From positions 124,001-188,000 of the forward strand of contig NZ_QYYD01000009.1 in NCBI RefSeq assembly GCF_003591005.1: a stretch of 64,000 nt of DNA, given 5' to 3'. Shown here piece after piece: positions 3,444 to 29,246 of this stretch (position 1 is its first letter; the number at the start of each line of letters is the position of its first letter). A model generated the notes under the pieces. That model ran no database searches, was not told the DNA's origin, and saw only the letters and a program-made list of their open reading frames with translations. The stretch comes from Rhodopseudomonas palustris. Lineage in GTDB: Bacteria > Pseudomonadota > Alphaproteobacteria > Rhizobiales > Xanthobacteraceae. A program made the position numbers and the translations under genes.

Positions 3444-5590
<2,147 letters not shown>

Positions 5591-5592
5591 CA

Positions 5593-7671
5593 ATGCGCCT
5601 CTCTGCTGGAAGCTGCTCTCGTCTCGGGGCGACCTGGGACGGGCGCGGCACCAATTTCGCGTTGTTCTCAGCCAATGCCCACAAGGTCGAGCTTTGTCTG
5701 TTCGACAGTCAGGGCCGACGCGAGCTGGAGCGCATCGAACTCCCGGAGCGCACCGAGGACGTCTGGCACGGCTACCTCAATGACGTGTCGCCCGGTCAGC
5801 TCTACGGCTATCGGGTCCACGGGCCTTACGATCCTGAACGGGGCCACCGGTTCAACGCGCACAAGCTGCTGCTCGACCCCTACGCCAAGCGGCTGTTCGG
5901 CCGGCTGGTGTGGAGCGACGCGCATTTCGCCTATCGCACCGGCAGCCCGCGCGAGGACCTGTCGTTCGACCGCCGCGACAACGCGCGCGGCATGCCCAAG
6001 GCGATGGTGATCGACGAGACCGGCGGCTTCTCACGCCACGAGAACCGTCCGAACATCCCGTGGGAAGACACCATTATCTACGAAGCCCACGTCAAAGGCC
6101 TCACGCAGCAACGCGACGACGTACCGCCCGGATTGCGCGGCACGTTCGGCGGCCTCGCCGCGCCGGCGATGATCGATCATCTCAAGCGGCTCGGCGTCAC
6201 CGCAATTGAACTTCTCCCCATTCACGCGCTTATCGATGACCGCATGCTGGTCGAGAAAAAGCTGGTGAACTACTGGGGATATAACACGATCTCGTTCTTC
6301 GCCCCGGAGCCGCGCTATGCGGCGGACAATCCGCTCGACGCGTTTCGCACCACCGTGGCGCGGCTGCACGACGCGGGCATCGAGGTTCTGCTCGACGTCG
6401 TCTACAATCACACCGCCGAGGGAAATCACCTCGGTCCGACGCTGTCGTTCCGCGGCATCGACAACGCCTCGTATTATTGGCTGTCGCGCGACAACCCGCG
6501 CTACTACGACGACTTCACCGGCTGCGGCAGCTCGGTGAATCTGCAGCATCCGCGCGTGCTGCAGATGGTGATGGACAGCCTGCGCTACTGGGTCGAAGTC
6601 TTCCACGTCGACGGCTTCCGTTTCGACCTCGCAACCACGCTGGCACGCGGGCCGAATGGCTTCGATCGCAACTCCGGCTTCTTCACCGCGATCCGCCAGG
6701 ACCCGGTGCTCGCCTCGGTCAAGCTCGTCGCCGAGCCTTGGGATCTCGGCATGGGCGGCTATCAGGTGGGCGCGTTTCCCTCACAATGGTCGGAGTGGAA
6801 CGACCGCTATCGCAGCGCGATGCGGCGCTATTGGAGCGGCGAAGGCAGCCTGATCGGCGAAGTCTCGCGGCGGATGACCGGCTCCTCCGATATCTTCAAC
6901 CACGACAGCCGGATGCCGCGCGCCAGCATCAACCACGTCACGGTGCACGACGGCTTCACCCTCGCCGACCTGTTCAGTTACAACGAGAAGCACAATCTCG
7001 CCAACGGCGAAGATAATCGCGACGGCTCGAACGACAATCACAGCAATAATTGCGGGCATGAAGGCCCGACCGATGATCCGCAGATCTTGGCGCTGCGCCG
7101 GCAGCTCCGCAGGAATCAGCTCGCCTGCCTGTTCCTCGCCCATGGCGTGCCGCTGCTGCTTGCCGGCGACGAAGTCGGCAACTCGCAGAACGGCAACAAC
7201 AACGCGTACTGCCAGGACAACGAGATCGGCTGGGTCGACTGGAGCGGACAGAACAGCGACGGCGACGACATGGTCGACTTCATCGGCCTGATGACTCAGC
7301 TGCGCGCCAACTTCCCACAGCTGCGTTCGCGGCGCTGGCTCGACGGCCGCCGCCCCGATGGCAGCTACGGCGTGCTGTGGCTGACGCCATCCGCTGCGGA
7401 GATGACCGAACAGGATTGGGCGTTTCCGGACGGCCGCTTCCTTGCTTACGTACTCAGCCCGACGCAACCCGGCACCAGCGCGATGTTCATCGTGCTGAAT
7501 TCCGGCGTTGAGACCATCCCGTTCCTGCTGCCCAACCTGCCCGAATATCAGAGCTGGCATCAGCTGTTCGACACTACCAAGGACACTGTGCAGGTCGCGC
7601 CGCTGGCGTCCGGCAGCGCGTCTTCCGCCCCACCCCGATCTGTCATGGCGTTTTCTGGAGCCCCTGTATGA
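5593..7671 (+). CDS. glgX: Glycogen debranching enzyme GlgX/TreX
   Basis: A 692-residue GH13 isoamylase-type debranching enzyme that hydrolyses alpha-1,6 branches. It has an N-terminal CBM48-like domain (TWDGRGTNFALFSANA). The barrel carries Asp345 (DGFRFDLATTL), Glu381 (VAEPWDLG) and Asp453 (VHDGFTLAD). When adjacent to treZ and treY this enzyme is often called TreX, because it feeds linear malto-oligosaccharides into trehalose production; the context fits either name. The ATG at 5593 is two bases after the glgB stop. The end overlaps treZ as ATGA. Length is typical for the family. Confidence 0.95.
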   Translation: MRLSAGSCSRLGATWDGRGTNFALFSANAHKVELCLFDSQGRRELERIELPERTEDVWHGYLNDVSPGQLYGYRVHGPYDPERGHRFNAHKLLLDPYAKRLFGRLVWSDAHFAYRTGSPREDLSFDRRDNARGMPKAMVIDETGGFSRHENRPNIPWEDTIIYEAHVKGLTQQRDDVPPGLRGTFGGLAAPAMIDHLKRLGVTAIELLPIHALIDDRMLVEKKLVNYWGYNTISFFAPEPRYAADNPLDAFRTTVARLHDAGIEVLLDVVYNHTAEGNHLGPTLSFRGIDNASYYWLSRDNPRYYDDFTGCGSSVNLQHPRVLQMVMDSLRYWVEVFHVDGFRFDLATTLARGPNGFDRNSGFFTAIRQDPVLASVKLVAEPWDLGMGGYQVGAFPSQWSEWNDRYRSAMRRYWSGEGSLIGEVSRRMTGSSDIFNHDSRMPRASINHVTVHDGFTLADLFSYNEKHNLANGEDNRDGSNDNHSNNCGHEGPTDDPQILALRRQLRRNQLACLFLAHGVPLLLAGDEVGNSQNGNNNAYCQDNEIGWVDWSGQNSDGDDMVDFIGLMTQLRANFPQLRSRRWLDGRRPDGSYGVLWLTPSAAEMTEQDWAFPDGRFLAYVLSPTQPGTSAMFIVLNSGVETIPFLLPNLPEYQSWHQLFDTTKDTVQVAPLASGSASSAPPRSVMAFSGAPV

Positions 7672-22853: not shown

Positions 22854-23579
22854 TTACGACCTGAACAACCGCGTATACTGCGTCTCGTGGCGCAGGCTGG
22901 CGAGGTCGGCGCGGAAGGTGGCGCCGCCGAGGTCGTCAAGCGACGCTGCCAACGCACGCTCGCCGGTGCTGATCACCACCGGCTCGAGCGCAGCAAGAAC
23001 ACGCTGACTATCCGTCTGGCCGAGCGGCACGAGGCGGGCGCCGGCGGAGATCCAGTTCGACACCACCGCGTGCAGGAACGCATGCAGCGTGGCGGCGAGC
23101 GGAACGCCGTGCAGTGCGCTGACCAGGCCGACCGCGACCGGATAGGCCAGCGCGCCGTCGCAAGCGGCCACCGCACGCTCCAATCCCTCGCTGGCCCAGG
23201 CGTTGCGGACGATCTCGATGAAGGCGCGGCCCTGCATGGTGGTTTCGAGATGGCGCTCGGCCGAGGGCACGAAGGCGACGGCGAGTTCGGCGACCTCGCG
23301 CAGCCCCTGCTCATTGCCGCCCGCGGCGGCCCGATGGGCGTGGGCGAGGAACACGCCGTCGCAGAAGCCGGCGCCGTGCTCGAGCATCGCGGCGAGCCAG
23401 TCGCGCAGGGTTGCGGCGTCGTCGACGTCGCCGGTTTCCACCGCCCATTCGAGGCCGCTGGAATACGAGAATGCTCCGACCGGAAACGCCGGCGACAGCC
23501 AGGTCATCAGCCGATACAGCGCAGCGCCCTGCTGCGCCGACAGCGGTTCGCTCGCCGTCCCTGACGGCTCAGTGGTCAT
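22854..23579 (-). CDS. ureF: Urease accessory protein UreF
   Basis: A 241-residue helical chaperone that, with UreD and UreG, delivers nickel to the urease active site. The start of the fold is [20 protein letters not shown] with GLEWAVETG, characteristic of UreF; a later [20 protein letters not shown] helix is also typical. I choose the ATG at 23579, which overlaps the last 11 bases of ureE. The upstream extension in this frame is only the His-rich ureE tail read out of frame. It is the last gene of the cluster on this strand, and ureG, which normally follows, is not present. Confidence 0.94.
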
Positions 23580-24159
23580 GCTTGTGTGCGTGGCCGTGCG
23601 CGTGACCATGATCGTGGCCGCAGTGCTCATCATGCACGTGGTGATCGTGATCATGGCCATGCTTGTGATCATGGTGCTGATGACCATGGTGGTCGTGATC
23701 GGCATGGTCATGCGCGCCGCCGTCGTGCGCCGGCGCATAGGCGCCGCCTTCCGGATCGAACGGCGCCTCGATCTCGACGACCTTGCCGCCGAGCCCCTTC
23801 ACCATGTCGGCGATGACATGATCGCGACGGATCCGCAGCGCCTTGGCCATCACTTGCGTCGGCAGATGCCGGTTGCCGAGATGCCAGGCCAGCCGCACCA
23901 GATGCAGCGGATCGCGGCCGCGGATCTCCAGAAGCGGCTCCGGCGCGGCAACCACTTCGACCAATCGGCCGTCGTCGAGCACCAATGCATCGCCGCCGCG
24001 CAGCGCCACCGCGTGTTCGAGATCGAGCAAAAACTCGAGTCCTCGCGTCCCCGTCATCGCCATCCGTCGGCGATGGCGGTCGTCGAACGCGAGCACCACG
24101 GTGTCGGCCGCCGGCTGCTTGAACTGATAATGTCCGTGGACTTTGCTGGCTCGGATCAT
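23569..24159 (-). CDS. ureE: Urease accessory protein UreE with long His-rich tail
   Basis: A 196-residue nickel metallochaperone. The N-terminal half has the peptide-binding-like domain ([17 protein letters not shown]), followed by the metal-binding domain ([11 protein letters not shown]). From about residue 144 the chain is nearly all His, Asp, Gly and Ala: about 25 His in the last 52 residues, with one Cys. Such tails bind and store several nickel ions. The tail ends at the TGA overlapping the ureF start. An upstream gap of 274 bases holding repeat A2 separates it from the ABM pair. Confidence 0.95.
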
Positions 24160-24433: not shown

Positions 24434-24733
24434 TCAGAACGTCTCGACCTTGGCGTCGCTGATGATCTCGATCACCGTCGGCGAGGCTTTCAGCGGCGCC
24501 GACAGTTCGCGCCACACCTTCATGTGCGGCGCCCGGGCGTGGGCGTTGAGGTCCTCGCGGCTCTCCCAGCGCTCGACCACCACGAAGGTGTTCGGATCGT
24601 TGATCGAGATGTGGTTCTCGTAAGCGATGCAGCCCTTCTCCTTGCGGGTCTCGGCGATGCAGGCCTTGGCGCCGGCGATGAAGGCGTCACGCGCCTCTGG
24701 CTTCACCTGCGTGGTGGCGACGACGTAGATCAT
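24434..24733 (-). CDS. ABM-domain monooxygenase (second of tandem pair)
   Basis: A 99-residue single-domain protein of the antibiotic biosynthesis monooxygenase (ABM, dimeric alpha/beta barrel) family. The N-terminal strand IYVVATTQVKPEARDAFIAG, the central GCIAYENHISINDPNTFVVV and the ERWESREDLNAHARAPHMK segment are all typical. Members include the quinol monooxygenase YgiN and the LsrG isomerase; they need no cofactor. It is 35 bases downstream of a paralogue of exactly the same length. Nothing in the protein suggests a direct role in urea breakdown. The ATG at 24733 is clear, with the strand beginning at residue 2. Confidence 0.85.
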   Translation of the reverse strand: MIYVVATTQVKPEARDAFIAGAKACIAETRKEKGCIAYENHISINDPNTFVVVERWESREDLNAHARAPHMKVWRELSAPLKASPTVIEIISDAKVETF

Positions 24734-24768
24734 CGGGGATTGTCCCTTCTTGTTGGCAGCGCTGACGC

Positions 24769-25068
24769 CTACTTCACATCCACCTTGGCGGGGGTGATGA
24801 TCTCGATCTTCGGCGGCGCCGCCAGGCACTTCGCCGCGGCGCGGCCGAACGCCTTGAAATGTTCGGTCTTGCCGTGCGGACCGAGCGCCTCGACGTTTTC
24901 CCATTGCTCGACGAACACCATCTGGGTCGGATCGGTGACGCTCTCGTGCAGGTCGTAGGCGACGTTGCCGGGCTCCTGGCGCGTGCCGGCGATGCACTCC
25001 TTGGCGGCGGCGATCAGCTCGGCCCGCATCTCGGGCTTCACGGTGAGTGTGGCGACGACATAGATCAC
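24769..25068 (-). CDS. ABM-domain monooxygenase (first of tandem pair)
   Basis: A 99-residue ABM-family protein, a paralogue of the next gene. The aligned segments are IYVVATLTVKPEMRAELIAA, GNVAYDLHESVTDPTQMVFV and EQWENVEALGPHGKTEHFKA. I assign a GTG start at 25068 because the strand begins at residue 2 there, the length then equals that of its twin, and GGGAGGAA lies just upstream. ATG candidates further up add a Pro/Arg-rich leader with no likeness to the family. Function is unknown; it probably acts on a small aromatic, quinone or aldehyde. Confidence 0.84.
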   Translation of the reverse strand: MIYVVATLTVKPEMRAELIAAAKECIAGTRQEPGNVAYDLHESVTDPTQMVFVEQWENVEALGPHGKTEHFKAFGRAAAKCLAAPPKIEIITPAKVDVK

Positions 25069-25200
25069 GAAAATTCCTCCCGGCGGGTTATCATTGGGGC
25101 GCAGGCGCCGGATGCGACCATAGGCGGATGACAGCGATGATGCAAAGGGCGCAGGGTGACACCCTCTCGTTGGCGGCCCCTGCATAAGCGACGAGAGTGG

Positions 25201-25334: not shown

Positions 25335-27047
25335 TCAGAACATGAAATAGCGCTGCGCCATCGGCAACACTTCGGCCGGCGCGCAGGTCAGCAGTTCGCC
25401 GTCGGCGCGGACTTCATAGGTCTCGGGGTCGACCTCGAGTTTCGGCGTGGCGTCGTTGTGGATCATGCTCTTCTTGGAAATGCCGCCGCGGACGTTGCTG
25501 ATCGGAACCAGCGTCTTGGCGATGCCGAGGTCGCGGGCGAGATTGCCGGCAGCGGCGGCCTGCGAGGTAAACACCACGGACGACGCCGTCAGCGCCTTGC
25601 CGAAGGCGCCGAACATCGGCTGGTAGTGAACCGGCTGCGGCGTCGGGATCGACGCGTTGGGATCGCCCATCGGCGCCGCGACGATGCTGCCGCCCTTGAT
25701 GATGCAGTCCGGCTTGACGCCGAAGAACGCCGGCGACCACAGCACCAGATCGGCCATCTTGCCCTTTTCGACCGAACCGATCAGCTTCGACACGCCGTGC
25801 GCGATCGCCGGGTTGATGGTGTACTTGGCGATGTAGCGTTTGACGCGGAAATTGTCGTTGCGCGAGCTATCCTGCGAGAGCGCGCCGCGCTGCTTCTTCA
25901 TTTTGTCGGCGGTCTGCCAGGTGCGAATGATCACTTCGCCGAGCCGCCCCATCGCCTGCGAATCTGACGACATCATCGACAGCGCGCCGAGGTCGTGCAG
26001 GATATCCTCGGCCGCGATGGTCTCCTTGCGGATCCGGCTCTCGGCGAAGGCGAGATCCTCGGCGATCGACGGATCGAGATGGTGGCAAACCATCAGCATG
26101 TCGAGATGCTCGTCGATGGTGTTGCGGGTGAACGGCCGGGTCGGATTGGTCGACGACGGCAGCACGTTGGGCAGCGAAGCGACTTTGATGATGTCCGGCG
26201 CGTGGCCGCCGCCGGCGCCTTCGGTGTGGAAGGCGTGGATGGTGCGGCCCTTGAATGCCTTCACTGTGTCTTCGACGAAGCCCGACTCGTTGAGCGTGTC
26301 GGTGTGGATCATCACCTGGATGTCGTATTCGTCGGCGACGGTGAGGCAGTTGTCGATCGCCGCCGGCGTCGTGCCCCAATCCTCGTGCAGCTTGAGCGCG
26401 CAGGCCCCGCCCTCGATCATCTCCTTCAGCGGACCGGGCAACGCGGCGTTGCCCTTGCCGGAGATGCCGAGATTGACCGGGAAGGCATCGAACGACTGAA
26501 TCATCCGGCCGATGTGCCACGGGCCCGGCGTACACGTCGTCGCGAAGGTGCCGTGCGACGGGCCGGTGCCGCCGCCGAGCATCGTCGTGACGCCGCTCAT
26601 CAGCGCGTGCTCGATCTGCTGCGGGCAGATGAAATGGATGTGGCTGTCGAAGCCGCCGGCCGTGAGGATCTTGCCCTCGCCTGCGATCACGTCGGTGCCG
26701 GGCCCGATGATGATATTGACGTTCGGCTGGATGTCCGGATTGCCGGCCTTGCCAATCGCGGTGATCACGCCGGCGGTGATGGCGACGTCGGCCTTGACGA
26801 TACCCCAATGGTCGACGATCAGCGCATTGGTAATCACCGTGTCGGCGGCGCCGTTGGCGTTGGTTACTTGCGACTGGCCCATGCCGTCGCGGATCACTTT
26901 GCCGCCGCCGAACTTCACTTCCTCGCCATAGGTGGTGAGGTCTTTCTCCACCTCGATGATCAGATCGGTGTCGGCGAGCCGGACGCGGTCGCCGGTGGTC
27001 GGGCCGAACATGTCGGCATAGACGGAACGTGCAATCCTGGTGCTCAC
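25335..27047 (-). CDS. ureC: Urease alpha subunit
   Basis: The 570-residue catalytic subunit that hydrolyses urea to ammonia and carbamate at a dinickel site. The ligands are all visible: His136 and His138 (DSHIHF), Lys219 for carbamylation (ALKLHEDWG), His248 (MIHTDTLNE), His274 ([10 protein letters not shown]), His322 or 323 on the active-site flap (VCHHLDPS) and Asp362 (SSDSQAMGR). The start is GTG at 27047, overlapping the stop of the upstream HD gene as GTGA, so translation is coupled. The N-terminus [19 protein letters not shown] matches the family and confirms the start. Length is normal. Confidence 0.97.
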
Positions 27048-27580
27048 AACACAGCCCTCGCGCGCGCGGCGGTTTCGTTGAAGAGATGATCGAGACGCTC
27101 ATTGACGCCGCGGCAGCCGGCGGCGACGTCCTCGGCCCATTCGAGATAATCGATCAGCCGCTGGCGCTCCCATTGGTCAGGCGGCGAAAAGATCAGCGAA
27201 CGGACATTGCTGATCTTGTCGGCGAGCTTGATCATTCGGGCGCGCGGCGTCAGGTGCGGTGCGTGCTCCACCTGGTTGCGCTTGCGCTGCGCGCGCGGCA
27301 GCGACATGTCGTCTGTGCACTCCACCACCAGCGAGGCGACGTCTTCGCCGAACCGATCGACCAGATTATCGCGACTGGTGTCGGAATCTTCGATGGCGTC
27401 GTGCAGCCAGCCGGCCGCGACCAGCGCGGCGTCGCTACCGTCAGTCGCGAAGGCCAGCATCTCGGCAACTTCGGCGAGGTGATTGAGATAGGGCTCGCGC
27501 GACGATCCCTTGCGCCGCTGCCCGGCGTGACAGCGCGCGGCAAAGTCCGCGGCGCGAGACAGCAGCATAAGATCGTTCAT
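27044..27580 (-). CDS. MESH1-type small alarmone hydrolase (HD domain)
   Basis: A 178-residue single-domain HD phosphohydrolase. Metal and catalytic residues are His34 (PYLNH), His60-Asp61 with Glu64-Asp65 (WLHDAIED) and Asp121 ([12 protein letters not shown]). The order and numbering closely follow the hydrolase domain of SpoT and, more specifically, metazoan MESH1: [11 protein letters not shown] and [16 protein letters not shown] are the MESH1-like segments. That family removes the 3'-pyrophosphate from (p)ppGpp and in some members dephosphorylates NADPH. There is no synthetase domain. It sits between ureB (27 bases) and ureC (four-base overlap), so it must be expressed with urease. Substrate is inferred from family. 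Confidence 0.86.
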
Positions 27581-27607
27581 GGGGCGATTCCGATTGACCC
27601 GCGCATC

Positions 27608-27913
27608 CTAGAGCTTGCCCATCACGTCGCCCCGGAAGCCGTAGACGACGCGATCGCCGGCGAGCGCGACGAGCTGGACGTCACGGCTCTGGCCGGGCTC
27701 GAACCGAACGGCGGTGCCCGCCGCGATGTCGAGCCGCATGCCGCGCGCCTTGTCGCGGTCGAAGCGCAGCGCCGGGTTGGTTTCGAAGAAATGATAGTGT
27801 GAGCCGACCTGGATCGGCCGATCACCGCTGTTGGCCACCGTCAGCGTCACCGTGGCACGGCCGGCATTGAGTTCGATCTCGCCGTCTTCGATGAACAGTT
27901 CACCGGGGATCAT
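27608..27913 (-). CDS. ureB: Urease beta subunit
   Basis: The 101-residue non-catalytic subunit. The sequence [19 protein letters not shown] and the later [17 protein letters not shown] with [17 protein letters not shown] are diagnostic of UreB. It assembles with UreA and UreC as (alpha-beta-gamma)3. It is separate from UreA, as in most bacteria outside Helicobacter. The 135-base gap from ureA holds repeat A3. Downstream, 27 bases lead into the HD gene and not into ureC as usual. Confidence 0.96.
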
Positions 27914-27932
27914 TTAGTGTCTCCAGGTCAGC

Positions 27933-28012
27933 GTCATTGCGAGGAGCGAAGCGACGAAGCAATCCAGCTCCGTGCACTGCGCTGGATTGCTTCGCTTCGC
28001 TCGCAATGACGA
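27933..28012. repeat. Dispersed palindrome family A, copy 3
   Basis: This is the cleanest copy. GTCATTGCGAGGAGCGAAGC with GAAGCAATCCAG is mirrored by CTGGATTGCTTCGC and GCTCGCAATGACG, giving a near-perfect 80-base hairpin in the ureA-ureB gap. A transcript of the operon would fold here. Confidence 0.88.
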
Positions 28013-28048
28013 ACGAGAGGGCATTGCCAAAGGGCCTCCTCCACGGCC

Positions 28049-28351
28049 TCACCGGATCGGCTGATGCACGGTGACGAGCTTGGTGCCGTCGGGGAATGTG
28101 GCTTCGACCTGGATGTCGTGGATCATCTCGGCGATGCCGTCCATGCACTGGGCGCGGGTGATGACTTCGGCGCCGGCTTTCATCAGCTCGGCGACAGAGC
28201 GGCCGTCGCGGGCGCCTTCGACGATGAAGTCGGTGATCAGCGCGATCGCCTCGGGGTGGTTGAGCTTGACGCCGCGCTCGAGCCGTCGGCGCGCCACCAT
28301 CGCGGCCATCGAGACCAGCAGCTTGTCCTTTTCGCGGGGGGAGAGATTCAT
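28049..28351 (-). CDS. ureA: Urease gamma subunit
   Basis: The 100-residue smallest urease subunit. [20 protein letters not shown] and [19 protein letters not shown], then [19 protein letters not shown] at the end, are the expected UreA landmarks. The ATG at 28351 is preceded by GAGAG-type purines; upstream frame extension is not UreA-like. It follows ureD by 55 bases. Confidence 0.96.
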
Positions 28352-28406
28352 GAAGGCACTCGATCGATTGCAGAGTTCGTGGGGCGGAACGGGGCAGCCC
28401 GATGAT

Positions 28407-29246
28407 CTAACTAAACCACAACCGCGGCAACGCGCGGCCCGCGGCGCGGCGTAGCACCGCGACCATATCGGCGCGCAGCTTCGCCGCATCTTGAGCGCAG
28501 AACCGCGCCATTGCAATTCCATTCCAGGCGCTGATGCCGACCTCCGCACCGAAGCAAGCCGCGTCTTCGCGCAACCGCTCGACCAGCGCGGTGTCACCCG
28601 GCACGATCAGCGCGGTGCCGATCGCGACGCCGGCTTTGGCGATGGCCGGCCGCGCCAGCAGCGCGCCGATATCGCCGTCAAGCCGCACGGTTTCGGCGAA
28701 CACCAGCTTGCCGCCGACCCGCAGTCGCCAGCGGTCGACAAAGCGGCCGGTTCGCATCGTCTCGCCCATCGCCGCGCGACCGAAAATCACGGATTCGCAG
28801 AGCAGCAGCGAGGCGCCGGCAGCAAGGTCGATATCAATGCGTCGCTCCGCGCACGCCTGATCGAACAGGATGGTCTCCTGCGGCAGCCAAGCCAAGTGAC
28901 CGCCGGTCTCGACCTTGAGACGGATGTCGAGCTCGGCCGCAGGGCCGTGCGAGCGATAGATCTTCTCGGCAGCCGCTGTGGTCAGCGTCAGCCGCGCGCC
29001 TTCGCGAATATCGAGGGCGACGCTGAAGCGGTCGCCGCCGGCGACGCCGCCCGCGGTGTTGACCAGCACGGCCGACAGCCCCTGCTGCTCGGGCGACGGA
29101 AAGCGCACGCGGAGCGAGCCAGCTTCGTGCACGGCACCGCGCCGCGTGGCGCCGTCGACGCTGCGCACCTCGACCGCAACCTCACCGACCGCCCGATTGG
29201 CGGCGAAGGTTGGCGAAGCGGCGAGGCTCGAATTCTTCAACGTCAT
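28407..29246 (-). CDS. ureD: Urease accessory protein UreD (UreH)
   Basis: A 279-residue beta-helical scaffold that binds apo-urease and recruits UreF and UreG for nickel insertion. Visible family segments are [31 protein letters not shown] and [12 protein letters not shown], with [12 protein letters not shown] further on. The overall length is normal. It is the first gene of the urease part, 237 bases downstream of urtE, with repeat E in the gap, so it may have its own promoter. Confidence 0.95.

Follow-up and report, generated by a model that had tools for sequence, protein, structure and literature searches.

A MESH1-type alarmone hydrolase gene in the urease operon of Rhodopseudomonas palustris and its relatives

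Bacterial MESH1-type hydrolases have mostly been described as orphans or as antitoxins, and the account given in PMC9765508 calls their physiological roles poorly characterised. The urease operon of Rhodopseudomonas palustris (assembly GCF_003591005.1, contig NZ_QYYD01000009.1) carries an open reading frame with the motifs of such an enzyme between ureB and ureC, which raises the question of what the protein acts on and whether its position reflects a tie to urease. The window analysed comprises 64,000 nucleotides of this genome (positions 124,001 to 188,000 of the contig); all coordinates of the operon given below are window coordinates, and its features are listed in Table 1.

Table 1. Features of the hydrolase-bearing urease operon in the window
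Feature	Position	Strand	Remarks
MESH1-type HD hydrolase gene	27044..27580	(-)	178 aa, ATG start, intact ORF
Stop/start overlap, hydrolase TGA with ureC GTG	27044..27047	(-)	string GTGA
ureC, urease alpha subunit	25335..27047	(-)	570 aa; NCBIfam PRK13207, 1042.8 bits
ureB, urease beta subunit	27608..27913	(-)	NCBIfam PRK13203; 27 bp 5' of the hydrolase gene
ureA, urease gamma subunit	28049..28351	(-)	NCBIfam PRK13241, residues 83-182 of ORF 28049-28597
ureD	28407..29246	(-)	Pfam UreD, E 8.9e-53
ABM-domain ORF, between ureC and ureE	24769..25185	(-)	Pfam ABM
Second ABM-like ORF, ureC-ureE interval	24434-24997	(-)	similarity to the first ABM ORF
ureE	23569..24159	(-)	NCBIfam UreE models; His-rich tail
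ureF	22854..23738	(-)	Pfam UreF, E 2.1e-42

The position of the gene between ureB and ureC, with a stop codon that overlaps the GTG start of ureC, had been noticed in the first-pass annotation and is confirmed: the 3' end of the hydrolase gene (hereafter also HD gene) reads GCT GTG TTG TGA and the 5' end of ureC reads GTG AGC ACC, the ureC GTG being located at 27047-27045 and the hydrolase TGA at 27046-27044. As a weak test for a promoter of its own found no promoter-like site in the interval 26900-28500, it is the gene order that argues for co-expression of the hydrolase with ureC. The G+C content of the gene (0.650, versus 0.643 for ureC) and its GC3 (0.793, inside the 0.751-0.891 range of five neighbouring ure genes) match those of its ure neighbours, and a recent foreign origin is thus unsupported by base composition.

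Several other elements of the operon were recorded. The ureA-ureB interval contains, at 27932-28011, inverted repeats with 20-nt arms that are 90% complementary and have no spacer, nested within a pair of perfect 12-nt arms. Among the best 80 of the 386 relatives described below, most loci of Bradyrhizobium and Rhodopseudomonas have ABM-type genes in the ureC-ureE interval, and none of the ten Methylobacterium or Methylorubrum loci does; a dN/dS above 1 obtained for the ABM gene (window versus L058 or L060, at very high divergence) most likely reflects a paralogue or a wrong frame and was discarded. The ureE product is presumably the nickel-binding chaperone of the operon. Elsewhere in the window genome a second ureC, 56% identical and with an adjoining ureG, is present (C55:176246-178601), and another ureG is located on a further contig (C22:314731-315306), apart from the hydrolase-bearing operon.

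Judged by its sequence, the window protein is a MESH1-type small alarmone hydrolase and hence a member of a known enzyme family. Pfam HD_4 matches residues 10-136 (E 8.2e-21), accompanied by a sub-threshold HD match and nothing further, and of the NCBIfam RelA/SpoT models only the N-terminal part aligns, with scores far under cut-off; the HD hydrolase domain stands alone, without synthetase, TGS or ACT domains. The top sequence match in the PDB is human MESH1 (3nr1; E 3.7e-41), which aligns without gaps over residues 7-167 and scores 144 bits in phmmer, versus 61 bits for the next SAH outside MESH1 and 58 bits for the best long RSH. An AlphaFold2 model built from 15 rows (pLDDT 94.5, pTM 0.90) returned MESH1 chains as all five top Foldseek matches, with TM 0.88-0.90 and 38-42% identity, and MESH1 thus resembles the protein more closely than long RSH and the other solved SAH do, in sequence as well as in predicted fold. 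With the motifs HDAIED and KLADK in place, both the earlier family assignment, made from HDxxED and KLADK-type motifs, and the remark that the residue spacing follows metazoan MESH1 are borne out.

All nine residues R23, K24, H34, H60, D61, E64, D65, D121 and N125, which we take to be the metal, catalytic and binding positions of MESH1-type hydrolases, are found in the window protein, and it appears to be catalytically intact. The nine are complete in 86 of the 88 aligned rows with the order ureB-HD-ureC (each column being kept in at least 87 of the 88), in all five rows with the order ureA-HD-ureB, and in both rows in which the gene adjoins ureE. The exceptions among the 88 are L162 (D65K, N125G) and L074 (E64V). 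Since D65K is also carried by L050 and L051, two relatives that lie outside urease operons and inside the urease-linked clade described below, this one side branch (L162, L050 and L051) looks possibly inactive. L051 additionally has D61G, and L162 (1519-2016) still resides in a urease operon. Human MESH1 has this change too in two PDB entries: the alignment shows it for the chain of 5vxa, and the title of 9chy names it as D66K.

Other affiliations of the gene were also considered. It is not the antitoxin SAH of a toxSAS pair: an adjacent synthetase toxin is absent, and the gene is flanked by ureB and ureC here and by other members of the ure set in its linked relatives. None of the PADLOC models matches the hydrolase, which rules out a defence gene by that measure. 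Three PHROG families match it, the best (E 8.5e-30) being named metal-dependent phosphohydrolase; with the relatives that were seen located in urease operons, the reading as a phage gene was set aside. The plasmid collection holds 325 matching records (40 of the 325 listed), all below 60% identity. The window genome itself contains one further match to the hydrolase, an RSH-like frame of 795 aa that is taken to be its long RSH.

The arrangement is shared by several genera. A scan of the genome contig collection yielded 386 relatives, and among the best 80 of these, in which gene order was read, 78 have ureC as the first urease gene downstream of the hydrolase; ureB was seen before the hydrolase in 76 of these 78 loci (not in L105 and L133). 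The gap between the HD gene and ureC is at most 100 bp in 72 of the 78, with overlapping genes in 10 of the 78, and measures 546-1060 bp in the other six. According to the record titles, the linked loci belong to Rhodopseudomonas, Bradyrhizobium and Methylobacterium/Methylorubrum, to a few MAGs without genus, and to one Frankia sp.

Several records call for comment. The locus titled Frankia sp. RB7 (L131) groups with Bradyrhizobium diazoefficiens and is probably mislabelled or contaminated. Bradyrhizobium jicamae (L106) possesses two copies in the order ureA-HD-ureB-HD-ureC (5140-6534). ORFs resembling the DUF559 protein of L240, an operon lacking the HD gene, recur between ureB and the HD gene in L067, L070, L072, L104 and others and identify this junction as a site of insertion; the DUF559 assignment comes from a scan of the L240 protein only, the other ORFs being assigned by likeness.

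Across the sampled genomes the linkage is conserved within a lineage and far from universal. The samples drawn from the window's family, order, class and phylum overlap, and the contexts of relatives in sampled genomes cover about 1.5 kb on each side. In the family sample the MESH1-type gene (counted at E ≤ 1e-20) is present in 21 of 119 genomes, versus 94 of 119 for ureC; it has the order ureB-HD-ureC in eight of the 21, the order ureA-HD-ureB in three (G010, G068, G111), a place beside ureE only in one (G067), and no urease gene in its flanks in nine. The order sample holds the HD gene in 34 and ureC in 203 of 297 genomes, and 30 matches with a locus divide into 8 urease-linked and 22 unlinked; the class sample has it in 17 of 385 genomes (3 linked) and the phylum sample in 26 of 398 (10 linked). 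All linked cases in these samples belong to the window's order and, inside it, to the families f1 and f42. In a sample of the genus of G232, which is of the Methylobacterium type, 10 of 59 genomes carry the gene, in 10/10 between ureB and ureC; ureC was seen for three of the 49 genomes without it. Urease is present (ureC) yet the MESH1-type gene absent in G108, of the window's genus, and in G307 and G329 (g25). The hydrolase is therefore not a regular part of urease operons, and on that ground it is not a urease structural or accessory protein. For the unlinked relatives, no common neighbour emerged from 20 ORFs of 13 loci (11 with a Pfam match), neighbour families in these 13 loci being shared only between near kin.

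The urease-linked proteins form one clade. A quick tree of 106 rows, built after manual thinning of near-identical linked rows, places all linked rows in a single set of 43 (SH-aLRT 96), and in a careful tree of 73 rows, from which 33 long or redundant rows including the Rel outgroup were left out, the linked set comprises 35 rows with support 99/97; both sets include the unlinked L050 and L051. The copies between ureA and ureB constitute a group of their own (5 rows, 96/84), and in the careful tree the two copies of L106 each group with their own operon position. Metazoan MESH1 lies outside the urease-linked clade, in trees that hold two metazoan Mesh1 fragments and, in the quick tree, one Rel as references, and no Mesh1-L, paSpo or other SAH. 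Protein distances of the hydrolase and of UreC are correlated over 29 hand-picked operons (Mantel 0.78, 0/2000 permutations), as expected for joint inheritance.

The hydrolase gene is under purifying selection. Its pairwise dN/dS ranges from 0.06 to 0.20 in ten pairs and exceeds that of ureC in 9/9 pairs with both measured; relative to ureB it is sometimes higher and sometimes lower. Low and yet above the values of ureC, it indicates that the gene is constrained, less so than ureC. A one-strain artefact or a decayed gene, which the first-pass annotation had named as a case that would undo its proposal, is ruled out by the spread of the gene order, the kept residues and the low dN/dS.

As to the substrate, the nearest assayed protein, and the only assayed one that seems to belong to the urease-linked clade, is SAHMex of Methylobacterium extorquens AM1 (MexAM1_META1p3226), for which the text of Potrykus et al. 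2020 gives 1.05e4 s-1M-1 with ppApp and 2.47e4 s-1M-1 with pppApp, and no activity on (p)ppGpp (PMC7644958). The earlier suggestion that (p)ppGpp or NADPH is removed is not supported, as it was put, by this protein. The same source lists four differences of SAHMex from (p)ppGpp-cleaving enzymes: I57A, V84L, D80Q and L150T (PMC7644958). These were mapped by letters between metazoan MESH1 and Methylobacterium proteins to A36, L63, Q67 and T123 in window numbering, a mapping which is not anchored to RelSeq numbering and which the number of 'D80' does not fit. All four SAHMex residues occur in 3 of the 160 aligned rows, namely two urease-linked Methylobacterium proteins (L071, L073) and one ureA-HD-ureB copy (L010), and also in the urease-linked L195, which lies outside that alignment; Methylorubrum thiocyanatum (L087) has three of the four. 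Two such genomes (L192, L193) also encode another HD protein, a weak match, and this one does not fit. Of the four residues the window protein shows A36 alone, so its base preference may differ, and it may also take (p)ppGpp. Because of the residue match in L071, L073 and L195, the description of the M. extorquens SAH as single and Mesh-like in Sobala et al. 2019 (PMC6491832), and the 10/10 occurrence of the gene in the urease operon in the Methylobacterium-type genus, SAHMex seems to be the urease-linked protein of M. extorquens.

Two Rhodopseudomonas strains, which supply the remaining two of the best 80 relatives, bear on the question of function. In R. palustris JSC-3b (L062; G067, G1118) and R. 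faecalis JCM 11668 (L063; G1119) the HD gene lies beside ureE, the pair occupying 6001 to about 7400 of either locus and being bordered by ORFs that are presumably helicase-like and ligase-like. Genome-wide, neither strain has a ureC at E ≤ 1e-10 or a ureG over cut-off; the other ure genes were sought in the flanks. Compared between the two strains, the HD gene and ureE show constraint, with dN/dS values of 0.09 and 0.08. Both strains possess hypB over cut-off. Three genomes that combine urease with the HD gene (the window genome, G028, G089) have ureG and no hypB over cut-off, and G108, with urease and without the HD gene, has both. If the usual order is ancestral, genes to either side of the HD gene disappeared, with ureE and the HD gene remaining, a pattern suggesting that there was a reason to keep the HD gene. 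The surroundings of the pair also changed, and a move of the pair is possible. The pair speaks against mere hitch-hiking with urease.

Does the hydrolase, then, simply travel with the operon? An orphan alarmone hydrolase lodged in a permissive ureB-ureC junction and serving general housekeeping unrelated to urease is a reading that we regard as rather unlikely, even though the junction is indeed permissive. According to the first-pass annotation, ureB is followed directly by ureC in canonical operons; in the window's order of bacteria this is mostly so, applying to 16 of 24 hand-picked urease operons without the HD gene (gap at most 100 bp), but the other eight have 377-1889 bp there, and five ORFs from such stretches encode DUF559, RNA-ligase, patatin, PIN and GFA proteins. 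More than 300 bp separate ureB from the HD gene in 24 of 76 linked operons, and the patchy presence of the gene among urease-bearing relatives and the lack of a common neighbour around its unlinked relatives are likewise what a passenger would produce. Such a passenger accords poorly, however, with the tight HD-ureC spacing across three genera, with the constant place inside the operon in all ten gene-bearing genomes of the genus sample, with the existence of another site for the gene within the operon (ureA-HD-ureB), and with the mere two unlinked rows within the linked clade. In Brucella suis the stringent response lowers ure-1 expression (PMC3710219), and alarmone level and urease are thus connected in another alphaproteobacterium. 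A functional tie of the hydrolase to urease is plausible, as is a link between purine alarmones and urease.

Such a tie could run through nickel: by freeing the GTPases of nickel insertion from alarmone, the hydrolase would protect the assembly of the metallocentre, the GTPase being UreG or, in genomes without urease, HypB. The HD-ureE pair, kept under constraint in two Rhodopseudomonas that lack ureC and ureG and have hypB, fits this mechanism, as does the binding of (p)ppGpp in the GTP pocket of E. coli HypB with a Kd near that of GTP (PMC5845004). We nevertheless consider it very improbable, since it draws on one evolutionary event, neither ureG of the window genome is in the hydrolase-bearing operon, alarmone binding by UreG was not found in the literature at the level of titles and openings, and the failure of SAHMex to hydrolyse (p)ppGpp (PMC7644958) counts against its simplest form. 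If true, it would be an alarmone filter acting locally for a single metalloenzyme pathway and would explain why the HD gene stays beside ureE without ureC and ureG. Equally hard to credit is a cofactor phosphatase, an enzyme working in reality on NADPH, on CoA or on some other 2'/3'-phosphorylated cofactor. At the positions that align with human W138 and R142, which we take, numbering included, to matter for NADPH, the window protein has the human residues; 69 of the 88 linked rows carry other residues at both. NADPH and CoA are both substrates of human MESH1 (PMC13221220), of which a PAPS complex is in the PDB (9chy), and XccSAH of Xanthomonas campestris is weakly active on NADPH (PMC9765508). 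SAHMex, on the other hand, freed no phosphate from NADPH at 18 nM or 0.2 µM, the human enzyme being positive at 0.2 µM (PMC7644958).

With moderate confidence we therefore favour an intact MESH1-type hydrolase that became part of the urease operon in a single bacterial lineage, is retained by selection, and trims purine alarmones in urease-making cells. The enzyme would be translated next to UreC, probably in a coupled manner in Rhodopseudomonas, and would most likely use Mn to take the 3'-pyrophosphate off purine alarmones, in the first place (p)ppApp and possibly also (p)ppGpp; alarmone made by the long RSH enzyme would be trimmed in this way, to the presumed benefit of cells making urease. 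The conserved home in Bradyrhizobium, Rhodopseudomonas and Methylobacterium points to urea, nitrogen limitation and nickel as the conditions under which to seek the role of the enzyme. A functional link would tie one named metabolic enzyme to purine alarmones, among them pppApp, which is poorly understood.

The enzyme thus belongs to a known family, and its urease-operon home was not found in print: no report linking MESH1, a small alarmone hydrolase or pppApp to urease was encountered in the open-licence literature, supplements lying outside the search. Atkinson et al. 2011 list the Mesh1 group for alpha-, beta- and delta-proteobacteria, and the main text of that paper (PMC3153485) contains none of the words urease, Bradyrhizobium, Rhodopseudomonas and Methylobacterium; 'urease' is likewise absent from the main text of PMC7644958 and PMC6491832, and 'urease' and 'operon' from the text of the XccSAH paper (PMC9765508). 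Human and Drosophila MESH1 (3nr1, 5vxa, 3nqw) share the catalytic residues and, at TM 0.88-0.90, the predicted fold of the window protein, the human enzyme aligning with it without a gap, but the animal proteins differ from it in identity (38-42%) and in their place outside the urease-linked clade. XccSAH is likewise a bacterial orphan, an SAH that has no toxic synthetase as partner; PMC9765508 has it cleave (pp)pGpp and pppApp and places it in Mesh1-L, not Mesh1. The closest counterpart is SAHMex, like the window protein a small MESH1-like hydrolase: the latter is 61% identical to L071, which carries the four SAHMex residues, and the urease operon is probably the genomic context of this assayed (p)ppApp hydrolase as well.
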